Positions 1,739 to 40,951 of a stretch of 64,000 nt of DNA are shown here, piece after piece. A program made the translations under genes and the position numbers. The DNA comes from a virus, in the IMG/VR virus record IMGVR_UViG_3300030419_005456, positions 1-64,000 of that record. One strand, written 5' to 3'. The first letter of the stretch is position 1. The number at the start of each line of letters is the position of its first letter. The notes beneath the pieces were generated by a model, which was not told the origin of the DNA, searched no databases, and saw only the letters and a list, made by a program, of their open reading frames with translations.

Positions 1739-1739
1739 T

Positions 1740-2048: not shown

Positions 2049-2057
2049 GAGTCCAAT

Positions 2058-21962: not shown

Positions 21963-23972
21963 ATGCCAGTTTCATATCATGCAAATTCACCAGACCAACA
22001 GTGTTATTTAACACCGGCTCCTTTTGTAAACATAGACAAGAATTTTGACAAGGCGGGTAATGGTGAAATATTAGGTGTTAGGTATACAATAACTTTAAAT
22101 GGTACGTTGGTTGCTGATAGAGGTTCTCCGTCTACTCATGAGGATGCAACAAACGGCTTTTTAACTACAGATGGTGAGATGATCATAGATGATCATGTTC
22201 ACGCTAACGGTTACACCGACATCATGAAAAAAATGCAGTTACTAAGGAATCTGTTTAGTAAAATAAATGAAGGTGGAAAATTAGAGATCCAAGCCCCGAA
22301 ACCTGCTGGTGGAGGAGAATTATATACATGTTTTCCTAGAATAGAATCTGTAAGCTTTCCAGAACATGCTCCCGGTAATCCGTTTATACAGCCTTATACT
22401 ATCGTTTTAGAAGCTGACAAAATTACTGGAACTAATCCAGACAATGATGATTTCGCAAGCGATAGGCTTTACGATGCCAACCTTATTAGTGCGGCTAGTG
22501 AAACTTGGGATATAACAGAAGCTTCTGAGATAGTTATTGGCAGAGAAGAAAAAGAAGAGGACCAATTAGCTCAAATAAAAGAAACAGCTAAAACCTTTAC
22601 GGTTACGCACACCCTTTCTGCTACTGGAAAACGAATGTTTAACGAAGAGTCGGGTGGAGCGGATGGGCTTGATAACACTGACCGAACTGATAGGGGTACA
22701 AAATTTTGGAACAAGCTTAAAGAGACTGGAACGGCAACGCCAACGGGTGAAGCGTGGTATCAAGCTAGAGAGTTTGTAAGAAAACAACTTAAGCCGGGAT
22801 TTAATGCTGGCTTAGGTGAAGATGGCGCTAGAGACGGGGTGAAAAATAATACAGACGATAGGGATAAGTATGGCATTAATATGCCAAAGAAGTTTACATG
22901 GAATGAAGAGGCAGAAATATATTACTCGGCTTTTGATTATGTAAAAACTGAGAATGTTGACGAGTTAGCTGGTACATTTTCTGTAACTGAAACTTGGGTG
23001 CTGGCTCCAAGCAATACAACCGCTACTGAAACAAGCGAGATTAGTATACAGGAAAACACAGAAGGTAGTAAGACTATTGCAATTAATGGCAATATACAAG
23101 GCTTTGGCGTTGAAGTTAAGGATACAGACACTTCGGATAAAGGGGCTGTAACAACCTACAAGGAAGGCTACGCCACAAAGTACACAAACGCCCTCGCTAA
23201 ATTCGCACAGATTGAGCCTAACTTATATATACTAGCTAGACAATTTTTAGCAAAAAACAACATGGATGGGTTTACCGTAAAACCAGTGCCTACCCAGAAG
23301 AGTCATGGGCATAATCCTGTAGTTGGAACTATTAATTACAATTATTCTTATGAGGTTGTTCCTTCTGACTCAGATGATTGTATACCATTGGCGATAACTG
23401 ACAGCCTTAGCATAAATGACACCTATCCGGGTCATACCTTTGCTCAACAAGTCGTTATAGGAAGAAAGCTGGGTCCAGTATTGCAGGATATTGGAACTCA
23501 GACTGTGTGGAAGAGAACTGTATCTTTGGGTTGTACTGTTGATACTACAAGCCCAAATCTTTGTATAAACTCTAGCAAGCAAAGAACGACACATAGAACT
23601 GAGGAAGATTGCACAGAGGATGGAAACACATGGGTTGACAATCCGAATCACCCTGATAATTGTTCGAGTCAAATTGGTATAAAACCAAGTATGAATAAAA
23701 AGGTTATTGTGGAGGGTGCAAAAAGTCAAAGAAAAGGTATACGAGAGTTAATAGACTCACTTAAACCTGACGTTGGGGTAACAGCAATTTACTATGACCC
23801 CCCTCAAGAAACTTGGAATCCTAAAACGGGAGCTTGGACTTATAATATAACATGGACTTATGAATTAGAAAATAGTTACCTGTGCAATGAAGATGTTGAC
23901 GGTATAGTTCCGGGTGAAGGAACAGATGAGACACAAAAGGGTGACAGAGAATATCCGGGTACAGCTTCTTAG
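21963..23972 (+). CDS. Distal-tail-like virion protein
   Basis: 669 aa. The N-terminus is strand-rich ('VRYTITLNGTLVADRG', 'YTIVLEADKITG'). Residues ~190-480 contain 'KTFTVTHTLSATGKRMF' and 'TETSEISIQENTEGSKTIAINGNIQGFGVEV'. A Cys segment near 520-560 ends with 'EEDCTEDGNTWVDNP', the first clear copy of the C-x(n)-W motif that recurs in the next genes. The C-terminus returns to strands ('WTYNITWTYELEN'). Its place soon after the tape measure suggests a distal-tail or hub component; no defining motif is seen. Confidence 0.45.
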   Translation: MPVSYHANSPDQQCYLTPAPFVNIDKNFDKAGNGEILGVRYTITLNGTLVADRGSPSTHEDATNGFLTTDGEMIIDDHVHANGYTDIMKKMQLLRNLFSKINEGGKLEIQAPKPAGGGELYTCFPRIESVSFPEHAPGNPFIQPYTIVLEADKITGTNPDNDDFASDRLYDANLISAASETWDITEASEIVIGREEKEEDQLAQIKETAKTFTVTHTLSATGKRMFNEESGGADGLDNTDRTDRGTKFWNKLKETGTATPTGEAWYQAREFVRKQLKPGFNAGLGEDGARDGVKNNTDDRDKYGINMPKKFTWNEEAEIYYSAFDYVKTENVDELAGTFSVTETWVLAPSNTTATETSEISIQENTEGSKTIAINGNIQGFGVEVKDTDTSDKGAVTTYKEGYATKYTNALAKFAQIEPNLYILARQFLAKNNMDGFTVKPVPTQKSHGHNPVVGTINYNYSYEVVPSDSDDCIPLAITDSLSINDTYPGHTFAQQVVIGRKLGPVLQDIGTQTVWKRTVSLGCTVDTTSPNLCINSSKQRTTHRTEEDCTEDGNTWVDNPNHPDNCSSQIGIKPSMNKKVIVEGAKSQRKGIRELIDSLKPDVGVTAIYYDPPQETWNPKTGAWTYNITWTYELENSYLCNEDVDGIVPGEGTDETQKGDREYPGTAS

Positions 23973-23981
23973 GAATAAAAA

Positions 23982-26900
23982 ATGCCAATTAATTCATCAA
24001 CTGATAGCGAATATATTTTTCAGCAAACATTTATGGGCGCTTCCATAACTAGCTTTAATGCTAGTATGGGTTTTAATAGTAATTCTAACAGCATAAATAT
24101 TAACCTAGTTGAAGACAATAAAAACAAAAGAGAACCTAACGCTGTAGATGAAGGATATCATATATGGGACAAGAAAAAGGGTTTTCCTGAAGGCGCGGCT
24201 AAAAATTATAAGGCTGCGGGTGATGTTTTCTATGCGCCGACCGTTGGGTCTCCCGCTTATTTTGAATACTACAAATCTACGATTAGAAGCTGTGGAGCTT
24301 GCGGCACAACAAGAGAGGGAAGAGATGAGGAAGGTGATAGGATACAAATATTTACAGAAGAGAGTCCTAGAGTAAATAAAGATCAAGAATCTTGCGAAGC
24401 TGCCGGTAAAGTTTGGAAAAAGCCCGCCGTTGTTGACAAAAGAAAAGCTGCTAAAAAGGGTGATCTTTCCAAGGTGTATGAATTTAATGGTATAGTAAAA
24501 AATTATAAAAGAGGCACAAGCAGTCGTGGAGTTACATATACGGTAACCCTAGAAGATCCTAGATTTATGCTTGAGGGTACTCAGGTTGTTTTAGGGGGGC
24601 ATTCAGACCCTATAGCAACAGCAGACGCTTCTTACAATATAATTAGAAAGTTTAGAAACGGTAAGTATAGCAACAGAAGATATTATAAATTTGGAGCAAT
24701 AGGCTATTATAACATACTAAATCCGTTTGGGTATTATGAGTATTTTCAGTATGGCTCTGCCGACGTAAGCGCTAATGGTATGCCGTGGGTAAAAGTGTTA
24801 GACGCTCTAGCTACCATACTTAAAGGTAGGTATGACATTTGGGAGGATGAGGATGGTGAGGTATACAATTTAGAAAGATTTGGCGGACCTCTGTACTATG
24901 TCCAAGACCTCCGTAAAGAACAGGAGATGAAAGCCTCTGAACCGGTAAATGTACATAGATATCAGGTAGATTTGAGAGACATGTACCTCCTGCATAAAGA
25001 TAAGGGTGGTCCTCTAGGGGATGATATTAGGATAAACGGCGAAAGCATGTCCCTTCTTTCCCTCCTTCAAAAAATATGCGAAATTGCTGGTGCAGACTTT
25101 TTTGTTGAATTGGTTACGAAGAAAGACAATGGAAAAACACCAATAGCAGAAAAGAAGCAACATGAACAATCAGATTACGCTGGTGTTATTAAAGTAACAC
25201 CAATCTTAAGAAATGCACCTATAGTTCCGGGTCTCATACAAAAAGAAATAGATACCGCCACCGAACAAAGCCAATTAACAGAACAAGAAGATTCTGATTG
25301 CACTAAAGGAGAAGCCAAACATAGATGGGCTAAACGTATTGTTTCTCATAATATTGGTTATGAATTTAAAGATCCTGTATCTGGAATTGTTTTAACAGGC
25401 GCTCAAAGAACAAGAGTGGTTGGGGTTACTGCCATGGGTTGGTTTCCTGATATTAATGTTCAAGGAGAAGAGGGCGGGGGAATGATTCGCAAGAGATTTG
25501 CTGTGGGTAGTGACAAGCTAAGAGAGTTCATGCCATCTATAGAGCAGGATGGTGTAGCCTTTTGTAATCCGGGTTGGTTACACCCAAAAGGTTTTCCAGA
25601 TAATACCAGAGGAATAAGTGTAGATCCAGCTAATCCGATTACTAAAGCGATGTGGAATGTTAAGAATCCCTTGAGTCCGGTATCTAATGATGACTTCGTT
25701 TCTTGGGGTCATGATAAAACTCCATTCATGGAGGCTAAACTTCATAAGTTGGCAGATGCTGTTGGAACCCCACCTGAATTCCAATTAGCTGGAATAAAAG
25801 CGGGCGATGGATTAATTGATTTGTACCCATGTTGGGGATTCCTGAGAGGCAGCGATCAGTTTAAAGGGGTATTTACTGCTTCTTCCTATCTTGCACCAAA
25901 AGCAAAAGGTGTTCCCATTAAAGGTAGGTTTGGGAATGATAATGCTTACAGAGACTTTGATACACTTAGAGGTATCTTTAGCATATTTGAATATTATGAC
26001 TATGACTATAAAACCAAAAGCTTAGAGAAACCGGGGCCGTGTTTTTTCACACCATATTCAAACCAGTGTCCAGCGTATCCTGAGCCAAAAGGTGGCATAC
26101 AAGCGCCAGCATGTTATGAAAATGACGGAGCAAATGCCAAAGAAAAAGAAGTAAAAGACGACAAGGGCGTTGTCCAAAAGGGTAAAAAATATAATAACAA
26201 AGAAGATTGTGAAAAGAATGATGGTTTTTGGTATAGCAGAGGCGGAGACTTTGTTACTTATAGATATAAACTTACAAGCAAAACTTTTGATACTAGACAA
26301 CGAATACGAGTAAAAGATACTGAAACCGGTGGGACAAAATTAGTAGATAATCCTAACTATGGAAATTTGGCATCCTTTACGTTTGCTCAACCTGCAACAG
26401 CAGATATTCCAGTTGATTTAAGCAATCTTATTGGAGGTATTAGTTACACTGGCGGCCCTGTTACTAAATATGGTGATTTTTCTCATTACTATTATGCTAC
26501 GGTTACTGAACTAAGAGCGGCTTTGTCCGGTTTTCAGTCTTGGAGTGAATACACCCAAATTTTTGCGCCTTGGCTTCATTGTACTCTTGGACTACCGACA
26601 TGTCCCATGGCAACAGGAAAACAAGCAAATATGGCCGGTGGACAAAAAGAAGCGCCGTTTATAGTGGTAAAAGACGCGGATGGTAACGAGAAGAAAGTAC
26701 CTAAGTGGAAGGGGGCTGGGCCATTTGTATACCCTGTTGTTCATGCGTTTAATAGATGGCTTGGTATAGTTCCTCCTCTTAGTGGCGACGAAGACCATGA
26801 TGGACGAGTAGATAATTACACTTTGGAATCTATGAAAGAGGTTCCCGGCGCTCAAGAAAATTCTAGCAAACTTCTTGAAGCTGTTTTTGACCGAATACAA

Positions 26901-28100
26901 CAAACGGCTAGCCATTACGGAAAATCTTATTTAATGGCACTTCCGTTTACACCTCCAGAGTCAGATGAGCATATAAGACAAATATCAGAAGTTGCTTTTG
27001 AGTATGAGCAGAGGTGGGATATATCTAGTGAGGGCTGGGTGGATATAGACACGCAAACAAAAGAATTTGGAAAAAGGTATCCTCACAATATTAATTTCTA
27101 CAGTAGTGAGGGTAATTTAGAACCTTTTGTTGTATTCCCTCAATACCGTCAACAAACCATAAGCAAAAGGCAAGCACCAATTGATCCGGGTAGTCAAGAT
27201 CCGAAAAGTGTTCATTATACTTTTATAGAAGACTCTTTGGGGGGAGGTTCTCAAGGTAAGATTTTCAAGAAAACCAATGTAGACCAAACAACATATTGGC
27301 TATGGAGTACCTCAACATACGATATACAAACTGGCAAGGCTAAAGAAGGAACCATTAAGCCTTACGCTTTAATAAAACAAAGCGAACGCGCTTCCTTGAG
27401 ACATGATGACATGACATCGGTTAGCCCAAACTCTAGCACAAGAAGGCGTCAAGATAAGACTTGGGCGATAAAGCCGTTTGGTGTTCCTTTGGGGAAAATA
27501 AATGGTAGGTATTTATTTAATGCTAACTTTATCTATGGATTTAAGACAGGTCTTTACCACCAAGGTAGTACGCATGCTGGCGCTTGGCAAGACTCTGGAA
27601 AATTTACCCTAGCACCAGCAGCTTATGCTCCTTGGACAGCGGCTGTTCCACAGAAAAGTAATAGATACAGATGGGGACCATGGGCTTTAGGAACTGGTTT
27701 TGGTAAAGCTAAATACGAAGTTGATACTAATTTTCACCCAGCAGCCTTTGGTGGTTTTGATAACATGGAAATTGCCGGGATAGAAAAATGTAAAGCGGCA
27801 GTAGAGCCAGACCAAGTAACATCTGGATGGGCAAAAGAGAGCGGTTCAATTACTTTGGCTGGTTTGCCTTCGGCAGATGATGGTGATGGTCGATCAATTA
27901 TGGGTCGCCAGTTGATGGGTCAAGGACCATATATAACTGATGTATCCTTAGATATTGGGTCTGGTGGCGTAACAACGACTTATAATATGCAAACACAACG
28001 AAAGTTTGGAAAACTACAAGAAATTTATGAGAACAGAATGAGACAACAAGCTTCAGACATTATAAAAACAGCAAAAGAACTGAATGACTTGAGAGGATAA
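23982..28100 (+). CDS. Large tail hub / tail-associated protein candidate
   Basis: 1372 aa. 'VYEFNGIVKNYKRGTSSRGVTYTVTLEDPRFMLEGTQV' (~165-205) and 'SMSLLSLLQKICEIAGADFFVEL' (~355-377) are the strand and helix blocks found in hub proteins of the gp27/gp44 type, where 'LL..I...G.dF' is common. Two Cys/Trp insert motifs, 'ESCEAAGKVWKKP' and 'KEDCEKNDGFWYSRGG', look like extra loops. The C-terminal ~60 residues contain 'TDVSLDIGSGGVTTTYNMQT', which is typical of hub ends, and a basic helix. Hub identity is inferred; the size is well above the usual ~400-800 aa. Four bases separate it from the next gene. Confidence 0.45.
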   Translation: MPINSSTDSEYIFQQTFMGASITSFNASMGFNSNSNSININLVEDNKNKREPNAVDEGYHIWDKKKGFPEGAAKNYKAAGDVFYAPTVGSPAYFEYYKSTIRSCGACGTTREGRDEEGDRIQIFTEESPRVNKDQESCEAAGKVWKKPAVVDKRKAAKKGDLSKVYEFNGIVKNYKRGTSSRGVTYTVTLEDPRFMLEGTQVVLGGHSDPIATADASYNIIRKFRNGKYSNRRYYKFGAIGYYNILNPFGYYEYFQYGSADVSANGMPWVKVLDALATILKGRYDIWEDEDGEVYNLERFGGPLYYVQDLRKEQEMKASEPVNVHRYQVDLRDMYLLHKDKGGPLGDDIRINGESMSLLSLLQKICEIAGADFFVELVTKKDNGKTPIAEKKQHEQSDYAGVIKVTPILRNAPIVPGLIQKEIDTATEQSQLTEQEDSDCTKGEAKHRWAKRIVSHNIGYEFKDPVSGIVLTGAQRTRVVGVTAMGWFPDINVQGEEGGGMIRKRFAVGSDKLREFMPSIEQDGVAFCNPGWLHPKGFPDNTRGISVDPANPITKAMWNVKNPLSPVSNDDFVSWGHDKTPFMEAKLHKLADAVGTPPEFQLAGIKAGDGLIDLYPCWGFLRGSDQFKGVFTASSYLAPKAKGVPIKGRFGNDNAYRDFDTLRGIFSIFEYYDYDYKTKSLEKPGPCFFTPYSNQCPAYPEPKGGIQAPACYENDGANAKEKEVKDDKGVVQKGKKYNNKEDCEKNDGFWYSRGGDFVTYRYKLTSKTFDTRQRIRVKDTETGGTKLVDNPNYGNLASFTFAQPATADIPVDLSNLIGGISYTGGPVTKYGDFSHYYYATVTELRAALSGFQSWSEYTQIFAPWLHCTLGLPTCPMATGKQANMAGGQKEAPFIVVKDADGNEKKVPKWKGAGPFVYPVVHAFNRWLGIVPPLSGDEDHDGRVDNYTLESMKEVPGAQENSSKLLEAVFDRIQQTASHYGKSYLMALPFTPPESDEHIRQISEVAFEYEQRWDISSEGWVDIDTQTKEFGKRYPHNINFYSSEGNLEPFVVFPQYRQQTISKRQAPIDPGSQDPKSVHYTFIEDSLGGGSQGKIFKKTNVDQTTYWLWSTSTYDIQTGKAKEGTIKPYALIKQSERASLRHDDMTSVSPNSSTRRRQDKTWAIKPFGVPLGKINGRYLFNANFIYGFKTGLYHQGSTHAGAWQDSGKFTLAPAAYAPWTAAVPQKSNRYRWGPWALGTGFGKAKYEVDTNFHPAAFGGFDNMEIAGIEKCKAAVEPDQVTSGWAKESGSITLAGLPSADDGDGRSIMGRQLMGQGPYITDVSLDIGSGGVTTTYNMQTQRKFGKLQEIYENRMRQQASDIIKTAKELNDLRG

Positions 28101-28103
28101 AAC

Positions 28104-29969
28104 ATGGCTATTGAATTCCCACAAGATAAATTACCTGAAATTCCTTTAGATGCAATTAAAAAATTGGATCAAATGGACGATCCGCAAGAAGCGGCGGGTG
28201 AAGATACATCTACACCTCAGACTAAAAATGTATCTAGTGGTTTATTTGCTGGAAGCATGAATATTGATGTTCACAGTAAGGTGTTTACTCAAAGCACAAA
28301 CGAAGAAGGCAAAACCTCATTTACATTAGCAACAGATGACGATTGGCCGGATGGATATTTTATAGATATAAGAACAGGTAAATCTGTTTCTCAACCAGCA
28401 ACAGCCTTAAAGTCCCATTTGGAAACTGACGGAGCGTGGAAAGCACAAGCCGGAATGAGTACGGAAGGTTTACTGCTTCCGTGCGCCGTTGAATTTGTTG
28501 AACGTAGCCCAAAAGGGGTAAGCGACGAATATTATAATGCCGGAGGAAAAAGGCCGGATATAGATGGAGGTGCCTTGTCTCCTTTTGAACAACCAAATAC
28601 TAAGTTGATGGATTGGCAAACTCCACCAACAGGTCAAGAAGGAAATATATGGGGTCTACAAAATATAACATCTGTTACTTTGAACCCCTTTGTTTACGCG
28701 CATCATATAGGAACGATGCTTAGAGGTTCTACTAAACAAACCCTTCAGATAAACAAAGACGGCTCTGATTATGTTGCCCCCATGCTTGGTGACGTTAATG
28801 AGACCGCTGGAGAAAATCAAAGACCATTAGGCTTAAGAGGGCCAATGATAGTAACGGGCTGGGGCTATGATACCGAAGACTTTCCCGTTCCTAACGCTAA
28901 AATGGAAGCCAAATATAAAGACTCCAACCCAAAGTCAGAAAACTTCGGCATGCCAACCTTAGAACTTGACGCCATCAAAGAGAGAAACCCTAAGCTATCT
29001 TTTTTAAATCACCATTTACAAAGAATAGACCAGTGGAAGAGCGGTCCTGTAGATTTAAGGTGGGATAGAGAAAGAAAAGTCTGGGTTAGCCCCGGAGCTA
29101 ACAGGGTTTACTTATGCAAAGCTGCTAAATGTATATTACCCACAGCCGGTCCCGATGGAAAAAACTCTTGGAATTGGGGCGTTGCCGGAACTACATCTTC
29201 TCCGGGTAGGCAGTACAAAAATCCATGCCCAGATACTAGTTGTGGGTTTAGTACATACTTTCCCACAAGTCCATATTTTCCCGATATAGAAATATATGAT
29301 CCCGAAGACAAAGAGTGGTGCGGTAAGTGTAGTGTAAGGCTTGTTGGTAAACACAAAACGCCTATGGTTAATTGCGAAGAGTTTAATGATGCCTGTGTTC
29401 CTTTTTATGATGCTATAGTTGTTAAATCTATGGGGCATATAACATCTGGAAAGGTTAAATCAGATTGTGGAGATAAATATCAGCGTACTGGTGCTGGGCC
29501 TTCAGATAGAAGAGTAGGTAACCCATGTCATGGCTGGGGCGTGCAATATATGCAAAAAGAAGAGTATCTTGGCGATATTATGGATGGTGGAACTAAAGCT
29601 ACTAAATATTCAGATGTTGCCGCATCTGTTTTACACAGAAAAATATTCATAGAAAACCCATTAAGTCAAGGGTTAATGCTAGGAGATGCATTTCTTAGTT
29701 ATGATACAGGAAGAAGGTTATCTTATACATATGAAAGAAGAAAAGACAAAGGGGCTTGTGGCGTTGCTGGTGAAAAAATAACAGTTACCGAAACTATACC
29801 AGTACATGTTATTCTGCAAGCTGAATTTTTTGGCGTAGAATTAGTACAGTCAGTAGCATGTCAGCAAGGAGAATTAGGTTCTTGCACTAGAAAGATATTT
29901 GCTCAAGGTATGGCCACCCCAATAGACTGTGGTCCAGACGACGACTATCCAAGCACAGCAATATACTAA
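28104..29969 (+). CDS. Tail-tip protein of unknown function
   Basis: 621 aa, ATG at 28104. The N-terminal ~120 residues are acidic, with 'SSGLFAGSMNIDVHSKVFTQS'. The middle holds 'WGLQNITSVTLNPFVYAHHIGTMLRGS' and 'PMIVTGWGYDTEDFPVPN', and the C-terminal third is Cys-rich ('YLCKAAKCILPTAG', 'CPDTSCGF', 'EWCGKCSVRLVGKH', 'CEEFNDACVPFYDAIV') before closing strands ('TVTETIPVHVILQAEFFGVELVQS'). No family is recognised. Together with the next gene it forms the Cys-rich part of the tail-tip set. Confidence 0.45.
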   Translation: MAIEFPQDKLPEIPLDAIKKLDQMDDPQEAAGEDTSTPQTKNVSSGLFAGSMNIDVHSKVFTQSTNEEGKTSFTLATDDDWPDGYFIDIRTGKSVSQPATALKSHLETDGAWKAQAGMSTEGLLLPCAVEFVERSPKGVSDEYYNAGGKRPDIDGGALSPFEQPNTKLMDWQTPPTGQEGNIWGLQNITSVTLNPFVYAHHIGTMLRGSTKQTLQINKDGSDYVAPMLGDVNETAGENQRPLGLRGPMIVTGWGYDTEDFPVPNAKMEAKYKDSNPKSENFGMPTLELDAIKERNPKLSFLNHHLQRIDQWKSGPVDLRWDRERKVWVSPGANRVYLCKAAKCILPTAGPDGKNSWNWGVAGTTSSPGRQYKNPCPDTSCGFSTYFPTSPYFPDIEIYDPEDKEWCGKCSVRLVGKHKTPMVNCEEFNDACVPFYDAIVVKSMGHITSGKVKSDCGDKYQRTGAGPSDRRVGNPCHGWGVQYMQKEEYLGDIMDGGTKATKYSDVAASVLHRKIFIENPLSQGLMLGDAFLSYDTGRRLSYTYERRKDKGACGVAGEKITVTETIPVHVILQAEFFGVELVQSVACQQGELGSCTRKIFAQGMATPIDCGPDDDYPSTAIY

Positions 29970-29984
29970 CGGACGGAAACAGGA

Positions 29985-32900
29985 ATGACAGTTGGAGACA
30001 ACTTTGATACATCTTCTCTTGGAACGAGAAACAGGAGAACTAAGCGCTATGCTGGTAGCTTAGAAACTGCTGGTCTTTATGGCCAATGGTATCAAGAAAA
30101 TAATTTCGGCCACCCTTGTAATATAGGTTGTGGCTGCAAAAAGGTCTGTGACGGACTGTTAGGACCATGTCTATTGCCACCCGAATTGCAGGTAACTCTT
30201 GTAAAATCTTCCAGTGGTAGAGTTAGCGCAAGAATTCAAACTGACACAAAAGGTTCTCAAGGTAGTGGAAACGCTGAAACGTTTCATCTTATATACCAAA
30301 ACGGCGCATGGAGAGGAAGAAAGTGCTGTACAGATTCTGACTCTAGGATATTAATAGACGAAAGCGAAGGCGAAACGGTCAGTTATTATCCTACGCAAGA
30401 TTCTGGTGATAAGTCTAGATCTGGAGAGTATCTATACTTTGTTAAAGATGAAGATTTTGATGATGGCGAGGGAAATAGCGCCTTTAAGTTTGCTGGACAA
30501 ACAGGTGTGCTTGTAGACAAGAAGGGTAGACCTGTCCATTTTAATAGCAATAGGACTGCAACTTCTTCCGCTATTGATCTCGACGAATCTATGGGTGCGG
30601 AGGAGGATTGTGGGGGTCGAAAATGTGCAAAGGTGGGCGCTTTTAAACACTCAGAGTGGATGGGTTGTGACCCTTGTAGTGTAACCACAATTGATGCTTC
30701 TTATCAGCTTTACAAACAGGATGTAGACGAAGAAGGTAATAAAATATCTGTTCCAGATGGATATAAAGTTACGGCTATTAATGCTGAAAAAGTTTGCTCT
30801 TACTATGGAAAAGAAGGTGTTCATAGACCTTGGAAGGGGAAAACAACCCGTCCTCACGATTTGAAATTTGAAGACATTAATCAAGAAACTGCGGGAATAC
30901 CAGTTTTTCCGGGCGTTCAATCTGGGTGTTTACCTGATGGAGAAAAGGCTAGATTATCAAACGATTATTGCTGGGATGTAGTTAATAATAAGATTGCCGA
31001 AAAAAATATTGTTCAATGTTTTGATGGCGGCACTGAGATTCGTGCCGATTTGGACTATCCCAACAAAGCACAAGACTGTATAGACGCTGGTTATAAGGCT
31101 GTTAATGCAACCCGCACGCTAACAGAAAAAGAGTGTTTAGAGCAAGCAAAGTGTGTCACGGGTGAAGACAACACAATCGTTTCAAAGTGGAACTGTTTAT
31201 CTCGCTTTGACCCTAAATCTACATACAATACAACAGGCGAAGAAGCTTCTATAAAAAGAACTTGGACATTAGAGTGGAAAAGTGGAACAGAAGTAGTATT
31301 TGATGCCAACAAAAAAATTATTGCCGGAGGTTACGACAGAACTTCTTGCTGTGGTGGTCACGTTATTGATCAGTGGCATACCCCACATACCCCTAATCTA
31401 AGATCTGGGTCTCAGGGAGTAAAGCACGGTTGGCAAGGAACCTGTGTTACCCCCTACAAAGAACTGGTATTAACCCCCGGCGTGCCTGATAACATGACCC
31501 CCGGCATGACAGCGCTTACCTGTGGTACTGGGACAGCAAATAGTCATGAAAGATTTGAAATGCATGACGATTTGGTTGAGTCTGGTTTTACCCTAGTTTA
31601 TAGAGATTGTGATTTCTATAACGATTACAATCCTGATGATGACCCTTACAATAATCCTGATAGCACAGACGCTGATGTTCCTTCTGGAGGAAAAGAAACG
31701 GTTCTAATTATCCCTATGGATCAGGTAATGAACTGTTCTGACTTTACTTTAACAGAACTAGACGGCAATCATAATTCTAGCAGGGATGGTTGGCAGGTTG
31801 AATATGGTGATTTAGCTGGAAATGCTGCTGGAGGTGATTACCCCGGCGATCCACATTCTACCGATGGCAATGATCCGGCTATAAATTATTGCATACGAGA
31901 CAGTGAAGGTCCGTGGCATGATAGCACAAAAGATGAATGGGCGCATGGTGGTGGTTTCAAAGGTGCCGGTGCAGATGGATCTAAGTCGTGGAAACGAACC
32001 AATGTTCCTAAAGGTTTTGGGGCTACGGGTAAAGGGGAATACGTTGACACCAACCATGGAAGTTGTTCGGTAGCTTATTACTGGGAAAATAGCTTAGGTT
32101 TAGACCCTCATAACGCAAGGTCTTATCATAACCCCGGAGATTGGGCTTTAAGAAAATTAAACCTTCAACCGCAACCATTCAAAGCTACAGAGTGGAGGCA
32201 AAACAAAAAGAAGACTCTCAAACAAGCTGAAGCAGATAGAGCAGCATTTGAGCAATGCATATCTGTAAGATGGCCAACTTGGTGTCAAAAGACCGGCCTA
32301 CCATTCTGGTTTGAAAATGATTTTCTGTGGGACAAATTCACATACAAATACGGTCGTTACGGAAGTAAAACGGCTATTAGTGATCAAGCATGCGCCCCAA
32401 TAAGCCAGTCTATATATGATATTTTGCAAGTTTCATATGACGACAAGAATTATGGCACCGAAGATAACCCTGAATATAAAGGGAAGTGTGTTTATTCTTT
32501 TGAAAATGTACAAAAAAGGGTGATAACTTTAGACTCATTTTCTGTGTATGAAATTTTTGACGACAAAGGGGGTTTAGCTTCACAAGGAGCCAAATTTGAA
32601 TCGGATGGTAGCGGTGGAGTGAAGGATCACGGGCATAGTGGAAAAGAGGCCACCGGTCGTATAATAGACGGTTCAAAAGTGGGTTTTCAGGAATGCATGG
32701 TTGATGAGTACGAATATTGTACAGACGATAATTATATAAGTTTTGAAGGCTGCATGAATGGTGGTGGATACTGGCAATCAACAATGGGAACATGGGAATA
32801 CCCAGAGTTAGAAGGGCCGGGAGATTCTGGGCATACACAATGCGGCGGTTGCGGTTCTGGGCCAAGAATTGCTTTTTTTGTTGATGATCCACCTGCGGGA

Positions 32901-35900
32901 TTAAGCGCACAAGAAAAATTAGACTGGGAAAGAAAATATAGAGACGGGCAAAACATGAAACAGCCCGGAACAAATCCAGATGACTACTACTTTATTAACC
33001 TACCATCGCAAATTACTAGCAAGATGGCTGAGTTATATACAGACAGAAAAGATATAGATGGATATGATAAAGATGAAACTGATAGCTTAGACTATTGGGG
33101 AAAAACAGGTTTATGGCCAGATCACGCTACGGCTAGTTATGTTGCCCATACAATGCTTGGTCTTAATACTACTAGAAAAATTGAGTATGCTAGTAATACA
33201 ACCCCTATTGTTGTAAAAAGTATTAACCATGGCTTAAAGCTTGGTGACCATGTGGGAATTGATGGAATTCTTGGTAATTTCAGAGCAAACACATGGACTC
33301 TTGGCCAATGGATGGAACAAGCTTGGCACAATAAAAGATCAAGTCCATGTGGAGGAGAGACTGATTGTGACGCACCTATTTGGCCAGATGCCGTATGTCC
33401 GTGTAATGATGGAAGTTGTAGCCACCCAAAAGGGGCTGATAGTAAAGAGGCATGTGAAAGCATACGAAATACGTGGGATGATTTTTGTAAACTTGACGGG
33501 GTCGATATATCGGGCAGCGCTTTTGGTGATCTAGTAGAGAGCAACGACTGGTCTGAAGAAGACGCAAAAGAATATTGCTATTCATCTGGTAAATGTTATA
33601 AGACACATCCAGACGGTACAAGAATAGAGGAAATTTCAGGTGCCGTCGTAGAAAGCGAAGGTTATTTAAGTCAGCATACGTGCTTTGCTTATGGAAACAG
33701 GCAAGGGGGAGATGGTTTTAAATATGAATTTGATCACCATAATAAATTATGCCTTGTGGAAGGTGAGTTAAAATATGCTGAAGACAAGAACTATTGCGAG
33801 AACGCCTACGACCACAGTTTGGGCGGGGTTTGGCAAGGCAGCACTGATAAGTATCCCCCGGAGGCTAAGGCTAAATCGTCATCCGAATGTAGTGATACAA
33901 ACCATAAGAATAAAGATGACTGCCTTAAAGCAAGACCTAAATGGACACAAGGAAAAAGTTTTGGAAAAGATAATGAGCATTGCTCTGGCGTAACAATAAA
34001 AGGTAAAGCTCCACCTCCAGCAGATTTCTTTGTCGTAAAGCCAGTTGATGATGACCACTTCCAACTTTGGAATTGTGCTGGCGAACCAATAGAGGGAACC
34101 ATAGATGAAGGGGTTGTTTGTGAGGGTGATGAGGCTTTAGATGTTACAGAAAAAGCCTGTGGTAATACCATAGCTCCATGGAATCAGGGTGTGATTGGCC
34201 AAACCGGGGGTCAAGAAATTGAAATGGTTAAGCAAACCATATGGGGAATAGAAAAAGAATGGCCGATGTTGAAACTAAGTAACAGCATCCCCCTTAACGA
34301 AGACAATTGTACCGAATATGGATATTGTTGGATTGTTGGTATAGGGTATGAGGCTGAGTCAATAATGACTCAAACTGACTGTTTCAATCTTGCTCGGGTC
34401 TATGAAAAGATAGAAATGACCGAAGCCTCAAAGAAGGCTGGAAAATTCCAACACACTCTATTATTAGCCCCGCTAGACAAAAATCCTGACAATGTAAATC
34501 CTTGTGTCAATGGCACCGATCCATCAGAGTGTTGGCAACCTTTGGAGTGGACAAGAAAAAAATCAATAGAAGAAGCTGCTGGTGAAAGAACAAGCGCAGC
34601 CATTACCAACTGGCAAGTTTGTCCACATACGGGTGTTTGGACCATATGGGATATGAATACAACAAACCCCTTGGTTAGCGATCCCGCAGACCCCAGCATA
34701 AGTTGGAGACCTTTCTGGACAGAGTCTGCCTACAAATCAGAAAAGGGCGCAGAAGACAATTACGTATATATACACCAAGAAGAAGTTTGCCCAGTATGCT
34801 GTGATCACTTTATGCCAGAAAAATTACTGGCTACTGTTGATGGTCTTGCCGTAACCGGAAGTACTGGATTGGTAGAGGGAACAGATCACTTCAACTACAT
34901 GACATCGGGTACTCATAATGTAAAGGTTCCAGACACAGATAATGACTATTGTGCTGAAATAAAAGACGGGAAAAGAACCAAAACCGACAAAGAATATGTT
35001 GATTGTAAAGTCGATGAAAACACACCAGAAGGTGTTACTTATGAATGGATTGTCCCCCTTAAAGCCACAACAGTAAATTGTGGGATTAATGCCTGCACAG
35101 GTAAGTTCTATGATTTTGTTGAAACTCAAACTATAGACTTAAGAACAAATGCTAAGGGTAGAGTAGGTGGAAAGTATTGCTGTGATTGTGGTGGATATTA
35201 TGAAAATGGTGTTTGGTATACTACAGAATGTGTAAAATGTTCTGACGCTCTTAGATTTGATGATCCGGTTGTAGATCATGAATTTGGAGATTCCCAATTA
35301 GGTATTGCTCCAGACCCCTGCTGTAGTTGTGAGTGTAATCCCGGCGAAGGAAATACACATAAAACTTCTTTAATGGATTATAAATATCCTACGTACAAAC
35401 AAGTTTGTGATTCACCATTGATGCCACAAGAAGCCGGAAAAACTCTTACTGTCGGGGAGCTTACTTGTAAAACAGTTACGGTAGAAGAAGAATGCGTAGC
35501 AACTGTTGCCTCTTGTTTAGATCTAGACAGCGAAGAAAAGTGTAACGCTGCTGACGTTGGGGATGGTGGTTGTTATTGGGCTAGCGATACAACACCGTCA
35601 GGAGATGAGTTCTTTTACTGTAAAGATCGTGCAGACAGCGTACCGTTTAGTTCAGATTCAGTTTGTGCAGAAAGATATGAAGAAAAAGACGCATGTAATG
35701 CCAGCCCCGTATGCGTTTGGCAGGATGAAAAAACAGCTTGTAGCTGTGGAACAGACGGTACTGGTAGAAAGGGTTGTACGGGTTTTCCAAATAATAGACC
35801 ACTTACATGCGAACCTTCTCAATTGGGTACTAATAGAGGCGCTTGTGAATATGATTTCAACGGTGCAAAAATCATTGCCGGAGGAAGCACCGTTGATAAA

Positions 35901-38900
35901 GATGGCTATTATGTTAATGACGAAGCTAACAGTGCGGAGGGTTGTGGTGAACCTAATGTATATGCAATGCCAACAGCAGAATGTTGGTCATACAAATATA
36001 AAACGGGAGACGGATGTCGTGGTCTGGGAACCAAAACGGTAGAAATGGAATACAACGGTTCTCATTGGACAACGCCTTGGTTCCCAATGATGGCCGACAC
36101 TCCAAAAACCAGAACGCTTAATGATGGACAATCATACCCAGAATTTGTAGGCGGTATGTCTTGTCAGAATTTTGCCATTCATGCAAATTGTGAAGCGGGA
36201 TACGGCGGTAGAAACGCTGACAAGACCTACAAACAAATTTTGGTTAGTTCTATGGGAGATTCTCAAGCTGACATGAATTGCGGGGGATGTTCAACGCACG
36301 AATGGAACGGCGTAGGAACACCACCAATACCAAGCCCAAAGATGGACGCCTACTTAATGCGTGTTCGTATGGGTTGTGGTGGAGCGTATCAACAGTATCA
36401 CGGAATGGATACATTGAAGAGTGGAGATTATTATCAAAATAATCAATTGAGTCTTTGGTCTGAAATCACTAAATGTACCTATCACATGTGTAATAAATTC
36501 AATGTGATGGATTCATATAGACCACCATGTCCGGGGCAAGGAGATGGGTGTGTTAATACAAGCAATTGGGCAGAACAGGGTTGGTGTAAATTTGGAGATA
36601 CCGATGGATTTTGTGATTGTCCTGTATTAGATGCGACAGGCTTGGCACCAGACTTTAAAGCTGTAAAGACCATTACCGACGACAAAGTATGTCTTTCTAG
36701 CTATCATCCAGATTTGGAAGATACGACAGACTGTGGCGGTCTTGAAGACTGTCATTGCGTTTGGGCGCACCCCGACTCAAAGTTCGGGTGTGAAAAAGAG
36801 GGGGGCGAATGGATTCGATCAGAAGAACCCATTCCTTATTATGACGATTGCGTTAACTGGAACGGATGGGTTGCTGTTCCGGGCGTAGATTGTGACTCTC
36901 AGTTACCATGTACCGAATGTTGTTCATTCTACCCGCCAACTCCGCAAATGGTGTTCAATACAACTAAACCATATGATGAACATGGAGCGCCCAAGCAGTA
37001 TATTAGTTGCGCCAGTGCTAGTATGATTAGTTCCTTGGAAGCCACTCCGTATGGAATTGAGGGGATGCCATTTCCCAGATGGAAACATCACAAACATGCA
37101 GACAGAGTAACAAAAATGGAAACCACAGGATGGAATCCTAAAACTCCAGAAAACTTTACTGTATACTTTGTAGAAGATTATGCTAGTGATTATGTTGCAA
37201 ACGCAGGTCATTCATTAGTTGTTAACAAAGGTAGTCGTGAGGCTTGTAATTGGCATGCTGGAGATCCTGTTAGCATAGGAATGGCTGATAGGGTTGAGGC
37301 AGAAACCGGACAGGGTTTCGGATTTACTAGAGATAGATTAAGCGCACAACCAGATTGGCCAAATCATACCACCGAACTTGCTAGTGATATAGCAGATGGT
37401 AAAGCGCGGTGGGAAAATAGCATGTTCAGGGATTCCGCAGAAGAAGCATACATGGAAATTCATGTAAAAAATGCGGGAGCATTAATAAGCAGGGCGAGCA
37501 TAGAGCAATCGCGTTACTGGAGAGCGCAAGAAAGATACCTCGCCTCTGAACCTTGGCCGTATGGTGACAGAATCTGGCCGGTTGGACATCAAAATAATAG
37601 CAAGTCTCCTTCTGCAACGGTAAATGTGGGAGAACTTGAATCTGTAGGTGGAAACGCTTTATCGGCAGCAAATGCGGCAAGAAATGGAAGAATAGGTCAT
37701 TTACCCACACTTGATAATATTACCGATCCTAAAAAAGCGGTATTTATTGGTGAATGGCCAAAACATGAAGTTGAGTACAAAGGAAACGACGAGGGAGAAG
37801 ACGATACAACAAATCCAATTCCTGTTAATAATAATGATTTTAATAACTCTATTGCTATAGCAGAAGTAGAGAATGTATACGATTGGGATACAGCCTATTG
37901 TACAAATCCTGTTGCTAAAAATAAAGACGATTGTGAGGCGTTAGGCAAGTGTCTAGGCGTAGCAGACGAAGAAACAGGTATAAGACCTGTTATAGAAGAT
38001 ATTACCAATGAGATAGTTTGTAATGCAGAAAAAGACGTTGACTCAGAAGGAAAACTTGTAGATGCTGGATATAAATGGAAAAAGACAGGTTGGTGGATGC
38101 CTACCTTTAAATATACGTTGTTTACTATGGGTGCAAGACACACCGATGGTCACATAGTAAAAAGTGAACACGATCTTAGAGCCGGAGAAAAGATTATCAT
38201 AAATGGGTCTGAGTGTCACAAATCCTACTGTGCTGCACACCCACAAGCAAACGAAAAATGGGAATTGCCAGATCATATATCTGGCGGAGATAGTGAAATG
38301 ATCGAGGGGATGGAGGATGAGCAAGTTAAACATCATCCAACATTAGACAAAACACTTTGTGAAAAAGTATATGGAGGTGTTTGGACTAGCCCCAAAAGCA
38401 GTGAGAGCGTACAACAAGGATGCTCTCCCTTATGTAGACTAGACTTATGGTGGGATAAAAATGCTTGTGGTGACAACTGCATGGATTCTATAGTTACTGA
38501 GCCATATTGTAGTTGGAAAGAAAACGGTGACAAAGCACGACTAAAAGTTAAAAACAATACTAGCTACTGTATGCTGTTAGGCAAGAGGGTAGATTTAAAT
38601 GAGGCTGATTGTAAGGCTGTAAAAGCTTATGAATGTAAGGTTACTTCTGGCCCCAACGCGGGAAAATATTTAGATACTGGTAATTGTGAAGAGCCTTTAG
38701 GTACGAATAACGAGAATACAACAGACGATCAATGTCCGTGTTGTCCAGACCCCACACAGACGCTAGCTGGGGATATGAAGGCATATCCAGAATGTAAAGA
38801 AAAATGGACTATAAGCACAGGCGAGTGGGTAACCTCACATAGTTATGATCCTGACTTTTCATCGGAAACAGACTGCAAAGACAAAAATAAGTGTGCTTGT

Positions 38901-39653
38901 ATTTATACTGGAGCGTCTGGACGAGCAGGTGAAGAGTTTGGTGTGGCAGTAGACGGCGTAACAACAAAGGATGCCTGCGAAGCGTTACGACCTAACACTA
39001 AATGGGTGTGCGGAGGGACAGATACCAAATGGAATCCCGCAACACAAATATTACCAGAGTGTGTCATAGACGGTTCTCATGTGGTAGGATTAATTGATGA
39101 AGATGGAAACGTGATTAGAGACCCTCACAAATTAGGGGGCTTTGGAAATACTCAGATCCGCAAAGACGTATTTACCATCCTTAATGAGAATCCTGTAGTT
39201 CCACACTCACTTCGTCCAGAAAGTCCTAACAATTACAATGATATAATTAATAAAAACGTAGTGACTTCCTTGGGTCATGAAATAATGGGGGGCGCTCCGA
39301 AGAACTTATACAAAGGTAGTACGTACGTAGCCGGAGAGGTAAATGATGAAGGAGAAACAGGACCATATGCTGGTGGTTCATGGAGTCGTCACGGAGGGTC
39401 GTTTAACATTAGGGTAGGATCAAAACCACAGCTAGATGACTGCGCTCAAGGCAATTCAAACACACCAGTCCACTTAACTTACTTTTTAAACATGTCAAAT
39501 TCAATGTGTAATCACTACTTGCCACCAATTGATGACAAATGTAACGAACAATGTTGGCGAGGATATGGACCATATACAGAGCCTAATATGACTTTTGAAG
39601 AAAGAGGAAGAGCTTTAATTAGGGTGGATATAACAGAAAAAGGATCTTACTAG
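29985..39653 (+). CDS. Giant Cys-rich tail-tip protein (3222 aa, ~150 Cys)
   Basis: One uninterrupted frame of 9.7 kb. The early part is Cys-dense ('GHPCNIGCGCKKVC', 'RKCC'), with CC and CxC clusters throughout ('CCDCGG', 'CCSCEC', 'CPCC'). I counted about 148 Cys. A short motif C-[EK]-x(3-8)-[GN]-x-W recurs ('KEACESIRNTWDDFC', 'CEKEGGEW', 'LCEKVYGGVW', 'KDDCLKARPKW', 'DACNASPVCVW'). No transmembrane segment, enzyme motif or S74 domain is visible. The C-terminus ends with a strand segment ('RALIRVDITEKGSY'). A disulfide- or metal-stabilised elongated appendage is inferred. It is not clear how so many Cys would be handled in a reducing cytoplasm. Confidence 0.6.
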   Translation: MTVGDNFDTSSLGTRNRRTKRYAGSLETAGLYGQWYQENNFGHPCNIGCGCKKVCDGLLGPCLLPPELQVTLVKSSSGRVSARIQTDTKGSQGSGNAETFHLIYQNGAWRGRKCCTDSDSRILIDESEGETVSYYPTQDSGDKSRSGEYLYFVKDEDFDDGEGNSAFKFAGQTGVLVDKKGRPVHFNSNRTATSSAIDLDESMGAEEDCGGRKCAKVGAFKHSEWMGCDPCSVTTIDASYQLYKQDVDEEGNKISVPDGYKVTAINAEKVCSYYGKEGVHRPWKGKTTRPHDLKFEDINQETAGIPVFPGVQSGCLPDGEKARLSNDYCWDVVNNKIAEKNIVQCFDGGTEIRADLDYPNKAQDCIDAGYKAVNATRTLTEKECLEQAKCVTGEDNTIVSKWNCLSRFDPKSTYNTTGEEASIKRTWTLEWKSGTEVVFDANKKIIAGGYDRTSCCGGHVIDQWHTPHTPNLRSGSQGVKHGWQGTCVTPYKELVLTPGVPDNMTPGMTALTCGTGTANSHERFEMHDDLVESGFTLVYRDCDFYNDYNPDDDPYNNPDSTDADVPSGGKETVLIIPMDQVMNCSDFTLTELDGNHNSSRDGWQVEYGDLAGNAAGGDYPGDPHSTDGNDPAINYCIRDSEGPWHDSTKDEWAHGGGFKGAGADGSKSWKRTNVPKGFGATGKGEYVDTNHGSCSVAYYWENSLGLDPHNARSYHNPGDWALRKLNLQPQPFKATEWRQNKKKTLKQAEADRAAFEQCISVRWPTWCQKTGLPFWFENDFLWDKFTYKYGRYGSKTAISDQACAPISQSIYDILQVSYDDKNYGTEDNPEYKGKCVYSFENVQKRVITLDSFSVYEIFDDKGGLASQGAKFESDGSGGVKDHGHSGKEATGRIIDGSKVGFQECMVDEYEYCTDDNYISFEGCMNGGGYWQSTMGTWEYPELEGPGDSGHTQCGGCGSGPRIAFFVDDPPAGLSAQEKLDWERKYRDGQNMKQPGTNPDDYYFINLPSQITSKMAELYTDRKDIDGYDKDETDSLDYWGKTGLWPDHATASYVAHTMLGLNTTRKIEYASNTTPIVVKSINHGLKLGDHVGIDGILGNFRANTWTLGQWMEQAWHNKRSSPCGGETDCDAPIWPDAVCPCNDGSCSHPKGADSKEACESIRNTWDDFCKLDGVDISGSAFGDLVESNDWSEEDAKEYCYSSGKCYKTHPDGTRIEEISGAVVESEGYLSQHTCFAYGNRQGGDGFKYEFDHHNKLCLVEGELKYAEDKNYCENAYDHSLGGVWQGSTDKYPPEAKAKSSSECSDTNHKNKDDCLKARPKWTQGKSFGKDNEHCSGVTIKGKAPPPADFFVVKPVDDDHFQLWNCAGEPIEGTIDEGVVCEGDEALDVTEKACGNTIAPWNQGVIGQTGGQEIEMVKQTIWGIEKEWPMLKLSNSIPLNEDNCTEYGYCWIVGIGYEAESIMTQTDCFNLARVYEKIEMTEASKKAGKFQHTLLLAPLDKNPDNVNPCVNGTDPSECWQPLEWTRKKSIEEAAGERTSAAITNWQVCPHTGVWTIWDMNTTNPLVSDPADPSISWRPFWTESAYKSEKGAEDNYVYIHQEEVCPVCCDHFMPEKLLATVDGLAVTGSTGLVEGTDHFNYMTSGTHNVKVPDTDNDYCAEIKDGKRTKTDKEYVDCKVDENTPEGVTYEWIVPLKATTVNCGINACTGKFYDFVETQTIDLRTNAKGRVGGKYCCDCGGYYENGVWYTTECVKCSDALRFDDPVVDHEFGDSQLGIAPDPCCSCECNPGEGNTHKTSLMDYKYPTYKQVCDSPLMPQEAGKTLTVGELTCKTVTVEEECVATVASCLDLDSEEKCNAADVGDGGCYWASDTTPSGDEFFYCKDRADSVPFSSDSVCAERYEEKDACNASPVCVWQDEKTACSCGTDGTGRKGCTGFPNNRPLTCEPSQLGTNRGACEYDFNGAKIIAGGSTVDKDGYYVNDEANSAEGCGEPNVYAMPTAECWSYKYKTGDGCRGLGTKTVEMEYNGSHWTTPWFPMMADTPKTRTLNDGQSYPEFVGGMSCQNFAIHANCEAGYGGRNADKTYKQILVSSMGDSQADMNCGGCSTHEWNGVGTPPIPSPKMDAYLMRVRMGCGGAYQQYHGMDTLKSGDYYQNNQLSLWSEITKCTYHMCNKFNVMDSYRPPCPGQGDGCVNTSNWAEQGWCKFGDTDGFCDCPVLDATGLAPDFKAVKTITDDKVCLSSYHPDLEDTTDCGGLEDCHCVWAHPDSKFGCEKEGGEWIRSEEPIPYYDDCVNWNGWVAVPGVDCDSQLPCTECCSFYPPTPQMVFNTTKPYDEHGAPKQYISCASASMISSLEATPYGIEGMPFPRWKHHKHADRVTKMETTGWNPKTPENFTVYFVEDYASDYVANAGHSLVVNKGSREACNWHAGDPVSIGMADRVEAETGQGFGFTRDRLSAQPDWPNHTTELASDIADGKARWENSMFRDSAEEAYMEIHVKNAGALISRASIEQSRYWRAQERYLASEPWPYGDRIWPVGHQNNSKSPSATVNVGELESVGGNALSAANAARNGRIGHLPTLDNITDPKKAVFIGEWPKHEVEYKGNDEGEDDTTNPIPVNNNDFNNSIAIAEVENVYDWDTAYCTNPVAKNKDDCEALGKCLGVADEETGIRPVIEDITNEIVCNAEKDVDSEGKLVDAGYKWKKTGWWMPTFKYTLFTMGARHTDGHIVKSEHDLRAGEKIIINGSECHKSYCAAHPQANEKWELPDHISGGDSEMIEGMEDEQVKHHPTLDKTLCEKVYGGVWTSPKSSESVQQGCSPLCRLDLWWDKNACGDNCMDSIVTEPYCSWKENGDKARLKVKNNTSYCMLLGKRVDLNEADCKAVKAYECKVTSGPNAGKYLDTGNCEEPLGTNNENTTDDQCPCCPDPTQTLAGDMKAYPECKEKWTISTGEWVTSHSYDPDFSSETDCKDKNKCACIYTGASGRAGEEFGVAVDGVTTKDACEALRPNTKWVCGGTDTKWNPATQILPECVIDGSHVVGLIDEDGNVIRDPHKLGGFGNTQIRKDVFTILNENPVVPHSLRPESPNNYNDIINKNVVTSLGHEIMGGAPKNLYKGSTYVAGEVNDEGETGPYAGGSWSRHGGSFNIRVGSKPQLDDCAQGNSNTPVHLTYFLNMSNSMCNHYLPPIDDKCNEQCWRGYGPYTEPNMTFEERGRALIRVDITEKGSY

Positions 39654-39661
39654 GAGACAAC

Positions 39662-40195
39662 ATGGGTTGTGGAAAATGCGGCGAAAGTAGATATTATAAC
39701 TATCGCCCCAAAAAGAAGAGAAAAACCAAGGGGTTTTTTAGCGAAACAGGAACTATCGAAAAGAAGGAAAATAAAGGTCCACCCACTACACCCTGTGAAT
39801 GTAAATTTCAGGAGGGTCAAGAGTTATACTGCGATAGACATAAGTGTGTAAAAACAAAACAATTACATGAATTATGTCAGTATTCTCAGGGATACTTTGA
39901 TCTATGGGAGCAAGGAGAAGGCCCGTTGCAAGCTGTATTTCACAAAGAAGAAGAAAAACCAGCAGAAGAAGAGGTTTCTTTAAGCGACTTTTTTATGGGA
40001 GACTTAGATATACCAGCTAAGTCAAGAGGTTTAGGTGATACGGTTGCAAAAATAACAAAAATAACTGGTATAAAAAAACTAGTGTATATAATCAACGATA
40101 TGTTGGGAAGAGAATGCGCATGCACTGAAAGGCAGAGTTTTCTCAACAGATTGTTTCCATACGAAAAGCCCAAGAAAACTAAAGGGTTTTTTTGA
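39662..40195 (+). CDS. Small Zn-binding-like protein with paired KTKGFF ends
   Basis: 177 aa, SD AGGAG (39654-39658). Cys groups: C3-x2-C6; C45-x-C47 with C57, C62 and C72 plus H60, and C152-x-C154. Between them are an acidic linker and 'GLGDTVAKITKITGIKKLVYIINDMLGRECACTERQ' (split here as residues 123-157), a pattern of 'GLGD...GI...C-x-C-x2-R-Q-x-x-L-N..FP' that I associate with small phage and bacterial proteins of unknown role. The peptide TKGFF occurs at residues 22-26 and again as the last five residues. A DNA- or protein-binding role is possible; the virion context suggests a morphogenesis factor. Confidence 0.45.
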   Translation: MGCGKCGESRYYNYRPKKKRKTKGFFSETGTIEKKENKGPPTTPCECKFQEGQELYCDRHKCVKTKQLHELCQYSQGYFDLWEQGEGPLQAVFHKEEEKPAEEEVSLSDFFMGDLDIPAKSRGLGDTVAKITKITGIKKLVYIINDMLGRECACTERQSFLNRLFPYEKPKKTKGFF

Positions 40196-40240: not shown

Positions 40241-40951
40241 ATGGCTTCTATAAGTTTCTACGCTGGAAATACCGTCGTAAACCATCTATCTGGTTCAGGT
40301 CTTGGTTTTTTTGGCGGTTCATTTGGCCAGTCGGTGGAATTAAATCAATGGCAAAGTACCACTTATATTACTGACGGCAATGGAACCGTACAGGGTGGTG
40401 CAGCTAATAATGTAAAATATTCTACTGATAGTTTGGCATTTGCAGATGGTATTGTGCCAGCCACCGGCTTAAAATTCATACCAAACTCTAAAGCTACCTG
40501 TAATGTTCGTTTTACCAACAGCACCGCAGTAAAAACACAAAATGTCAAATTGAGAATTTTTGACAGAACAAATAAAGATCACCCAGCCAGTGGTGTTGTC
40601 ACGAGAGTAACAGAGCTTCTTCACCCATCCTCTTCGTACAGCGTAGAAGGATCTGGAGACTCGTTATGGTGGGGTAGTTCAACACATACTGGAACTGACG
40701 CTCAAGGCACTCTACAGGGATCTCCTAATCCAAGTAGCAGATTACCTGCTGGTACTAATACGGTTGGCGGTAGTGGTATTTATGTACCTCTCGCTAAATC
40801 TCCCGGCCCTAGTGGTATCTTTGCAGGAAACGGCGCTAACAATACAGGTCAATATACGCAGCATGACTGGTATTTGGGAATTAGCGCTTCTCCAGATAGC
40901 GTAGGAAGCAAAACCCTGTACGGTTTATATGTAGAACTAGAATATCTATAA
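40241..40951 (+). CDS. Separately expressed virion protein, beta-rich
   Basis: 236 aa, SD AAGGAG, own promoter-like motif. N-terminus 'MASISFYAGNTVVNHLSGSGLGFFGGSFGQSVELNQWQSTTYITD' (read in blocks), then 'NVKLRIFDRTNKDHPASGVVTRVTELLHPSS', and the end 'LYGLYVELEYL'. I recognise the general type (abundant beta-sandwich virion proteins of marine phages) but not a named family. Its private promoter and terminator suggest a high-copy product such as a decoration or appendage protein; this is inferred. Confidence 0.5.
   Translation: MASISFYAGNTVVNHLSGSGLGFFGGSFGQSVELNQWQSTTYITDGNGTVQGGAANNVKYSTDSLAFADGIVPATGLKFIPNSKATCNVRFTNSTAVKTQNVKLRIFDRTNKDHPASGVVTRVTELLHPSSSYSVEGSGDSLWWGSSTHTGTDAQGTLQGSPNPSSRLPAGTNTVGGSGIYVPLAKSPGPSGIFAGNGANNTGQYTQHDWYLGISASPDSVGSKTLYGLYVELEYL

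Follow-up and report, generated by a model that had tools for sequence, protein, structure and literature searches.

How does a single phage protein of 3222 residues use 148 cysteines, and is a short motif of cysteine and tryptophan, which recurs in this protein and in tail proteins encoded upstream of it, a new family of repeats? The window in which these questions arise is the first 64 kb (64,000 nucleotides, 39.8% GC) of the 125,570-bp virus record IMGVR_UViG_3300030419_005456 in IMG/VR. The virus is a long-tailed phage, and its genes include those for an S74 tail fibre, DNA polymerase III alpha, DnaB, class II ribonucleotide reductase and rIIA. Two separate ORFs, about 830 bp apart (record positions 70826-72439 and 73272-75197), encode DNA polymerase III alpha, one carrying the PHP and NTPase domain and the other the finger and HHH domain. 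Within the window, a long run of small enzyme genes occupies the minus strand at positions 41430-63960. One of the enzymes is a DegT-type aminotransferase fused to a glycosyltransferase-like region, and the block probably serves sugar modification.

The giant ORF and its place among the tail genes

The giant, a putative tail-tip protein, is encoded by one ORF on the plus strand (29985..39653). A sequence-only reading had described it as a 3222-residue tail-tip protein with about 150 cysteines (about 4.6%), in agreement with our count of 148 Cys, or 4.59%, set against a genome-wide mean of 1.76%; it also contains 85 Trp. The cysteines are unevenly distributed, with 16-17 per 200 residues around residues 1600-2000 and 2800-3000 and a single one in residues 2400-2600.

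The tape-measure gene (10896..19442, plus strand), recognized by PHROG tape-measure matches, encodes 2848 residues with no cysteine at all. A short domain in this protein (residues 456-507) is matched by PHROG 35029 at several places, and is 51-62% identical to stretches of cyanophage proteins, for example in S-SM2 and Bellamy. On the 3′ side of the tape-measure gene, co-directional genes encode proteins of 832, 669, 1372, 621, 3222, 177 and 236 residues, in this order. The giant is thus the last of five large co-directional genes after the tape-measure gene, and the order is identical in its relatives. The 669-aa protein (21963..23972), the 1372-aa protein (23982..28100; hub-like by gene order only, with homologs of 1238-2114 aa) and the 621-aa protein (28104..29969) precede the giant, while the 177-aa protein (39662..40195) and the 236-aa protein (40241..40951) follow it, all on the plus strand. 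The 621-aa protein has 12 cysteines that are invariant in 11 homologs and an invariant WCGxC motif, and it has a profile match in none of the libraries searched. This motif was considered as the mark of a thioredoxin fold, an idea dropped after a PDB profile search that gave no thioredoxin match. The 177-aa protein is also rich in cysteine. Its conserved CxC...CDRHKCxKTxxLHxLC pattern ends in a TKGFF tail, its identity across the family is 45-52%, and it weakly matches PHROG 32048, a family of unknown function. The 236-aa protein is 71-88% identical in 16 IMG/VR contigs.

Relatives of the giant were reached with the 621-aa neighbour as the query, which retrieved 12 marine-type contigs in IMG/VR. 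A homologous giant Cys-rich ORF lies directly downstream of the 621-aa homolog in all 12 of them, and in further ones, and profile searches extended the family to about 17 IMG/VR phage contigs; additional partial members adjoin homologs of the 236-aa gene. Complete members are 2195-4101 aa long with 3.9-6.7% Cys. They share blocks that are 27-40% identical to the window protein; the insertions between these blocks differ widely in length. Four blocks stand out in the window protein. The N-terminal block (residues 1-130, 29985..30374; GHPCNIGCGC... and GAWRGRKCC) includes C45, C49, C51, W109 and C115 as invariant and near-invariant columns. The second block (residues 1038-1140, 33096..33404; YWGKTGLWP ... 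ASNTTPIVVKSINHG) supplied the search pattern YW[GHR]xTGL[YFW]P, and the third (residues 1589-1620, 34749..34844), which contains CPVCCDHF, supplied CPVC[CA]DH. The last is the C-terminal block at residues 3093-3218 (39261..39638; WSRHGGSFNIRVG). All four are on the plus strand.

Neither Pfam, PHROGs and PDB sequences nor isolated phages yielded a match to the family. Used as single-protein queries, P0001 and P0002 gave no relatives, and no match to 50,697 phage records was obtained by tblastn with residues 1-2000 and 1336-3222 of the giant, or with the full-length homolog L006 and three neighbours. No family relatives were found in the bacterial and archaeal genomes searched, and each half of the giant, used as a profile query against the PDB, yielded nothing. 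Against tail-tip models of the gpJ/gpL type in Pfam and PHROGs, the window giant matched no such family up to E=1; the only match to a tail-tip model in Pfam was at chance level and in one homolog. AlphaFold models of the N-terminal half (1064 aa, 14 sequences; pLDDT 39.9) of L006, the most compact homolog, and of the 621-aa protein (11 sequences; pLDDT 32.7) are unusable, because homologs are lacking. The giant resembles gpL and gpJ of phage lambda and g13 to g15 of RcGTA in its presumed tail-tip position after the tape-measure gene. However, it carries no recognisable FNIII or hub domain, and it differs from gpL and gpJ in having no Pfam or PHROG sequence match and far more cysteines.

Conservation and spacing of the cysteines

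In an alignment of 12 family members, at least 11 of the rows agree in 236 columns, and cysteine, with 59 of them, accounts for more than any other residue. The share of residues that stand in such columns is 35% for Cys, 14% for Trp or Pro and 12% for Gly. In the window giant, 59 of the 148 cysteines fall in these columns and 33 are nearly private. The alignment bears out the giant as a real and conserved protein, with its cysteines under strong constraint.

The cysteines also tend to be lost together. For neighbouring Cys columns (distance <=15), the mean Jaccard index of loss is 0.388 compared with 0.176 after permutation, a value reached by 0 of 2000 permutations, although this gap-based co-loss may stem from deletions of whole blocks and the signal from substitutions only is weaker. 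With substitutions only and local alignment checks, 15 near Cys pairs were counted versus 7.8 expected (p=0.009), with no such excess for Gly, Pro, Trp, Asp or Asn; the p value rises with distance from 0.009 (<=20) through 0.016 (<=40) to 0.056 (<=60). Identical loss patterns exceed expectation for Cys only. Two rows, L020 and L028, carry substitutions at Cys 62 and Cys 584 alike. Lineage-specific inserts with an even number of cysteines number 34 and those with an odd number 43 (33.9 and 55.4 expected), with no significant excess of even numbers. Since Cys columns are lost together more than those of other residues, pairing is supported. Such co-loss is the signature to be expected of Cys pairs, and taken alone it would fit disulfides and shared metal sites alike.

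The same data bear on the simplest objection, which is that the ORF encodes a non-virion protein or that the cysteines are free thiols with no structural role. The failure of AlphaFold to give a confident fold could be read in this way. However, in every relative the gene keeps its place directly after the tape-measure and tail genes, and the Cys columns are both the most conserved of all and co-variable in their loss, which speaks against free or incidental thiols, as these would show neither property. We regard this explanation as improbable.

The spacing of the cysteines helps to separate disulfides from metal sites. The CC, CxC and CxxC clusters to which the sequence-only reading drew attention are not clearly enriched: 7, 10 and 6 are observed in the window giant (6.7, 6.5 and 6.2 expected), and 96, 61 and 89 in the 12-member family (114, 106 and 99 expected). 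The enriched spacings in the family are instead C-x5-C (147 vs 83) and C-x10-C (102 vs 62), with z-scores that are inflated by related rows in the alignment. CxxC is the commonest spacing in metal sites. Its lack of enrichment, together with the excess of C-x5-C and C-x10-C, therefore favours disulfide loops, and the Cys losses tend toward pairs rather than fours. Nevertheless, conservation is high at several CxxC sites (CPVC at 1602/1605, and also 1732/1735, 1749/1752, 2099/2102 and 2309/2312), so metal sites are possible for a subset of the cysteines. A zinc ribbon at 1732-1752 was considered and dropped; the spacing differs in relatives. That the cysteines mainly coordinate metal, as zinc sites or iron-sulfur clusters, has a precedent in the tail-tip protein gpL of phage lambda, in which a conserved Cys cluster provides four ligands to a [4Fe-4S] cluster (PMC10721106). 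The conserved CxC...CDRHKC...LC of the 177-aa neighbour looks metal-binding. The giant matches none of the metal-binding domains in Pfam, however, and with CxxC at chance level in the family we consider a mainly metal-binding role rather unlikely.

Disulfides might also link the giant to its neighbours. In the Agrobacterium phage Milano, which has a contractile tail, the structural proteins contain about 2.1% Cys and are locked by disulfides seen by cryo-EM; these bonds are inter-chain, and their reduction is needed for contraction (PMC10811340). A mixture of intrachain and inter-chain disulfides could similarly lock the tail tip to adjoining proteins and would have to be reduced at the host surface. 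The conserved cysteines of the 621-aa and 177-aa partners would suit such an arrangement, as would a thioredoxin-like gene (record positions 92407-92766, WCPFC) that this phage shares with 6 of the 11 related virus records that were searched; 4 of these 6 have a divergent second copy in tandem. However, thioredoxin-like genes are common in phages and need not act on virions, and the co-loss is mostly between cysteines near each other in one chain. This arrangement seems to us somewhat less likely again than the metal-binding one. As with Milano, the Cys content is raised (4.59% for the giant and 3.9-6.7% among its homologs) and covalent stabilisation of the tail is proposed; the difference is that the cysteines here are concentrated in one giant of unrelated sequence. 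Judged by its sequence, the giant belongs to neither the Milano nor the lambda gpL type.

The Cys-Trp unit and T4 gp8

A motif C-[EK]-x(3-8)-[GN]-x-W had been said to recur many times in the giant. It does recur, with 5 occurrences versus 0.4 expected and none of 500 shuffles reaching this number, but "many times" overstates it. In its full form, the unit reads C-x(10-14)-C-x3-GG-x-W. In 71 of 77 unit seeds, the second Cys is found upstream at a distance of 11, 13 or 15 residues; among 78 matches, position -4 is D, N, S or T in 59 (about 21 expected) and position -3 is K, E or Q in 48 (about 12 expected).

Five or six units can be placed in the giant, all read from the plus strand. The unit at residues 1143-1166 (GSCSHPKGADSKEACESIRNTWDD; 33411..33482) occupies a lineage-specific position and has a profile match of 17.9 bits. 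That at residues 1301-1317 (ECSDTNHKNKDDCLKAR, then PKW; 33885..33935) is matched by two profiles, one of which was built only from unrelated viral proteins, and that at residues 2257-2278 (HCVWAHPDSKFGCEKEGGEWIR; 36753..36818) has a match of 13.7 bits. A unit without the Trp, also supported by profile matches, lies at residues 2638-2654 (YCTNPVAKNKDDCEALG; 37896..37946), and its Cys columns 2639 and 2650 are jointly absent, as gaps, in L006 and L015. The unit at residues 2788-2803 (DKTLCEKVYGGVWTSP; 38346..38393) is kept in all 12 homologs, with Cys in 12/12 and Trp in 11/12. Together the units account for about 12 of the 148 cysteines, and therefore they do not explain the Cys richness of the protein.

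The upstream examples that had been pointed out are present: the 669-aa gene encodes EDCTEDGNTW, and the 1372-aa gene encodes both ESCEAAGKVW and KEDCEKNDGFW. The 669-aa protein has one complete unit (23562-23642), with a match of 24.7 bits to a profile that had this very unit among its seeds. The 1372-aa protein has units at 24375-24419 and 26190-26231, and their number varies among its homologs. In the 621-aa gene, directly upstream of the giant, the motif was not found. The unit does recur in the families of the giant, the 1372-aa and the 669-aa protein, in keeping with its earlier description as an insert, and its positions there are lineage-specific. A profile made from unrelated viral proteins gives 44 matches of at least 2 bits in the giant's family, whereas reversed sequences give 0 and shuffled ones 0.4.

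What did not survive is the novelty of the unit. The peptide CEAAGGTW is encoded in at least 120 stretches of IMG/VR, versus 2 for the reversed peptide, and in all 80 of these stretches that were examined it is read in an open frame, in unrelated phage proteins; gpJ-like, gp8-like, Ad2-like and tail-fibre proteins are among them. Unit-bearing proteins of other viruses match PHROG 977 (baseplate wedge), PF09215 (T4 gp8) and PF22670 over the unit. Moreover, a profile of 18 units matches residues 140-164 of T4 gp8 (E=9e-4) and a second baseplate wedge subunit from a phage, 9f4a (E=3e-3). A hand-made consensus of the unit gave E values of 0.008-0.1, mostly for T4-like baseplate wedge genes, which is only suggestive. 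In the alignment with gp8 140-164 (PDB 1n7z, 5iv5), the whole unit (GMCSIASLTDKDECLKLGGKWTPSA) is covered, and both Cys, the GG and the Trp are aligned; the Pfam match to PF22670 (gp10 domain 3) is weaker. Thus, given its occurrence in diverse phage virion proteins and its match to the solved gp8, the unit is not a new repeat family but an element already solved in T4 gp8 that recurs in many phage structural proteins. The resemblance of gp8 and the giant is confined to this mini-element of about 25 residues, whereas the giant and its homologs as whole proteins show no similarity to the T4 gp8 family (PF09215, PHROG 977). Two or three Cys-Trp units are also seen in a viral protein family of about 400-450 aa (L083, L080, L105 and similar IMG/VR loci) with the signature LMSILAxC...NKEDCEAAGGTWIDP.

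An apparently exchangeable cassette and the possible role of the giant

A relative outside the family comes from a phage-like contig of 152,655 bp (C7, in G015) that was binned in a MAG of the SAR202 cluster. It shares homologs of the aldehyde dehydrogenase (69% identity), polymerase III (58%) and the tape-measure protein (49% over 515 aa), and, among the tail genes, of the 669-aa (28%), 1372-aa (22%) and 236-aa (36%) proteins. C7 is a phage genome, or a fragment of one, of the same lineage. Its polymerase III alpha is likewise encoded by two ORFs (66471-68108 and 69136-70695). Because a viral contig may end up in the wrong bin, SAR202 is no more than a lead to the host of this phage group.

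Between the homologs of the 1372-aa and 236-aa proteins, C7 encodes a single protein of 1523 aa with 0.59% Cys, at the place where the window phage has the 621-aa protein, the giant and the 177-aa protein. The 1523-aa protein has no match to the profiles of the giant and the 621-aa protein. Since a low-Cys protein replaces the three in C7, the cassette looks exchangeable, and the 236-aa gene marks its downstream edge. This suggests that the giant, the 621-aa and the 177-aa protein form an exchangeable tail-tip module at the end of the tail operon.

On balance, we lean toward the giant being a tail-tip or adsorption component with a conserved core held by many intrachain disulfides. It would be a very large distal-tail component of a long-tailed marine phage, built of many small conserved blocks with lineage-specific insertions of variable length between them. 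Most of the conserved cysteines would be paired within the chain by short-range disulfides, in loops such as C-x5-C and C-x10-C, and these bonds may give cohesion to a protein for which little regular structure is predicted. We infer the location in the virion, the disulfide chemistry and the contact with the host. Exchange of the whole cassette for a different, low-Cys protein in related phages would fit what is expected of a module in contact with the host surface. The Cys-Trp units, which are of the T4 gp8 type, may be small insertions in their own right, placed in loops of the giant and its neighbours. Phage tails are assembled in a reducing cytoplasm, and therefore about 70 disulfides in one chain would be awkward unless they were formed late. 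The bonds may arise or mature once lysis has released the particles into oxic water, or else during assembly. A bolder version is a single-chain tail tip knitted by tens of disulfides that are formed by oxidation in seawater after lysis and reduced at the host surface to trigger DNA ejection, while gp8-type units spread among virion proteins as small portable disulfide loops; we give it little credence.

The giant and its homologs constitute a phage protein family that is absent from every annotated collection searched, and its members are among the largest tail proteins, with an extreme and conserved Cys content, while in a related phage the same slot holds an unrelated low-Cys protein. The two-Cys, one-Trp element of T4 gp8 recurs in many unrelated phage structural proteins, and its recognition aids their annotation. 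If the cysteines are bonded, the giant would rank among the known single virion chains with the most cross-links, which would pose the question of how a particle that is assembled in a reducing cytoplasm acquires tens of disulfides.
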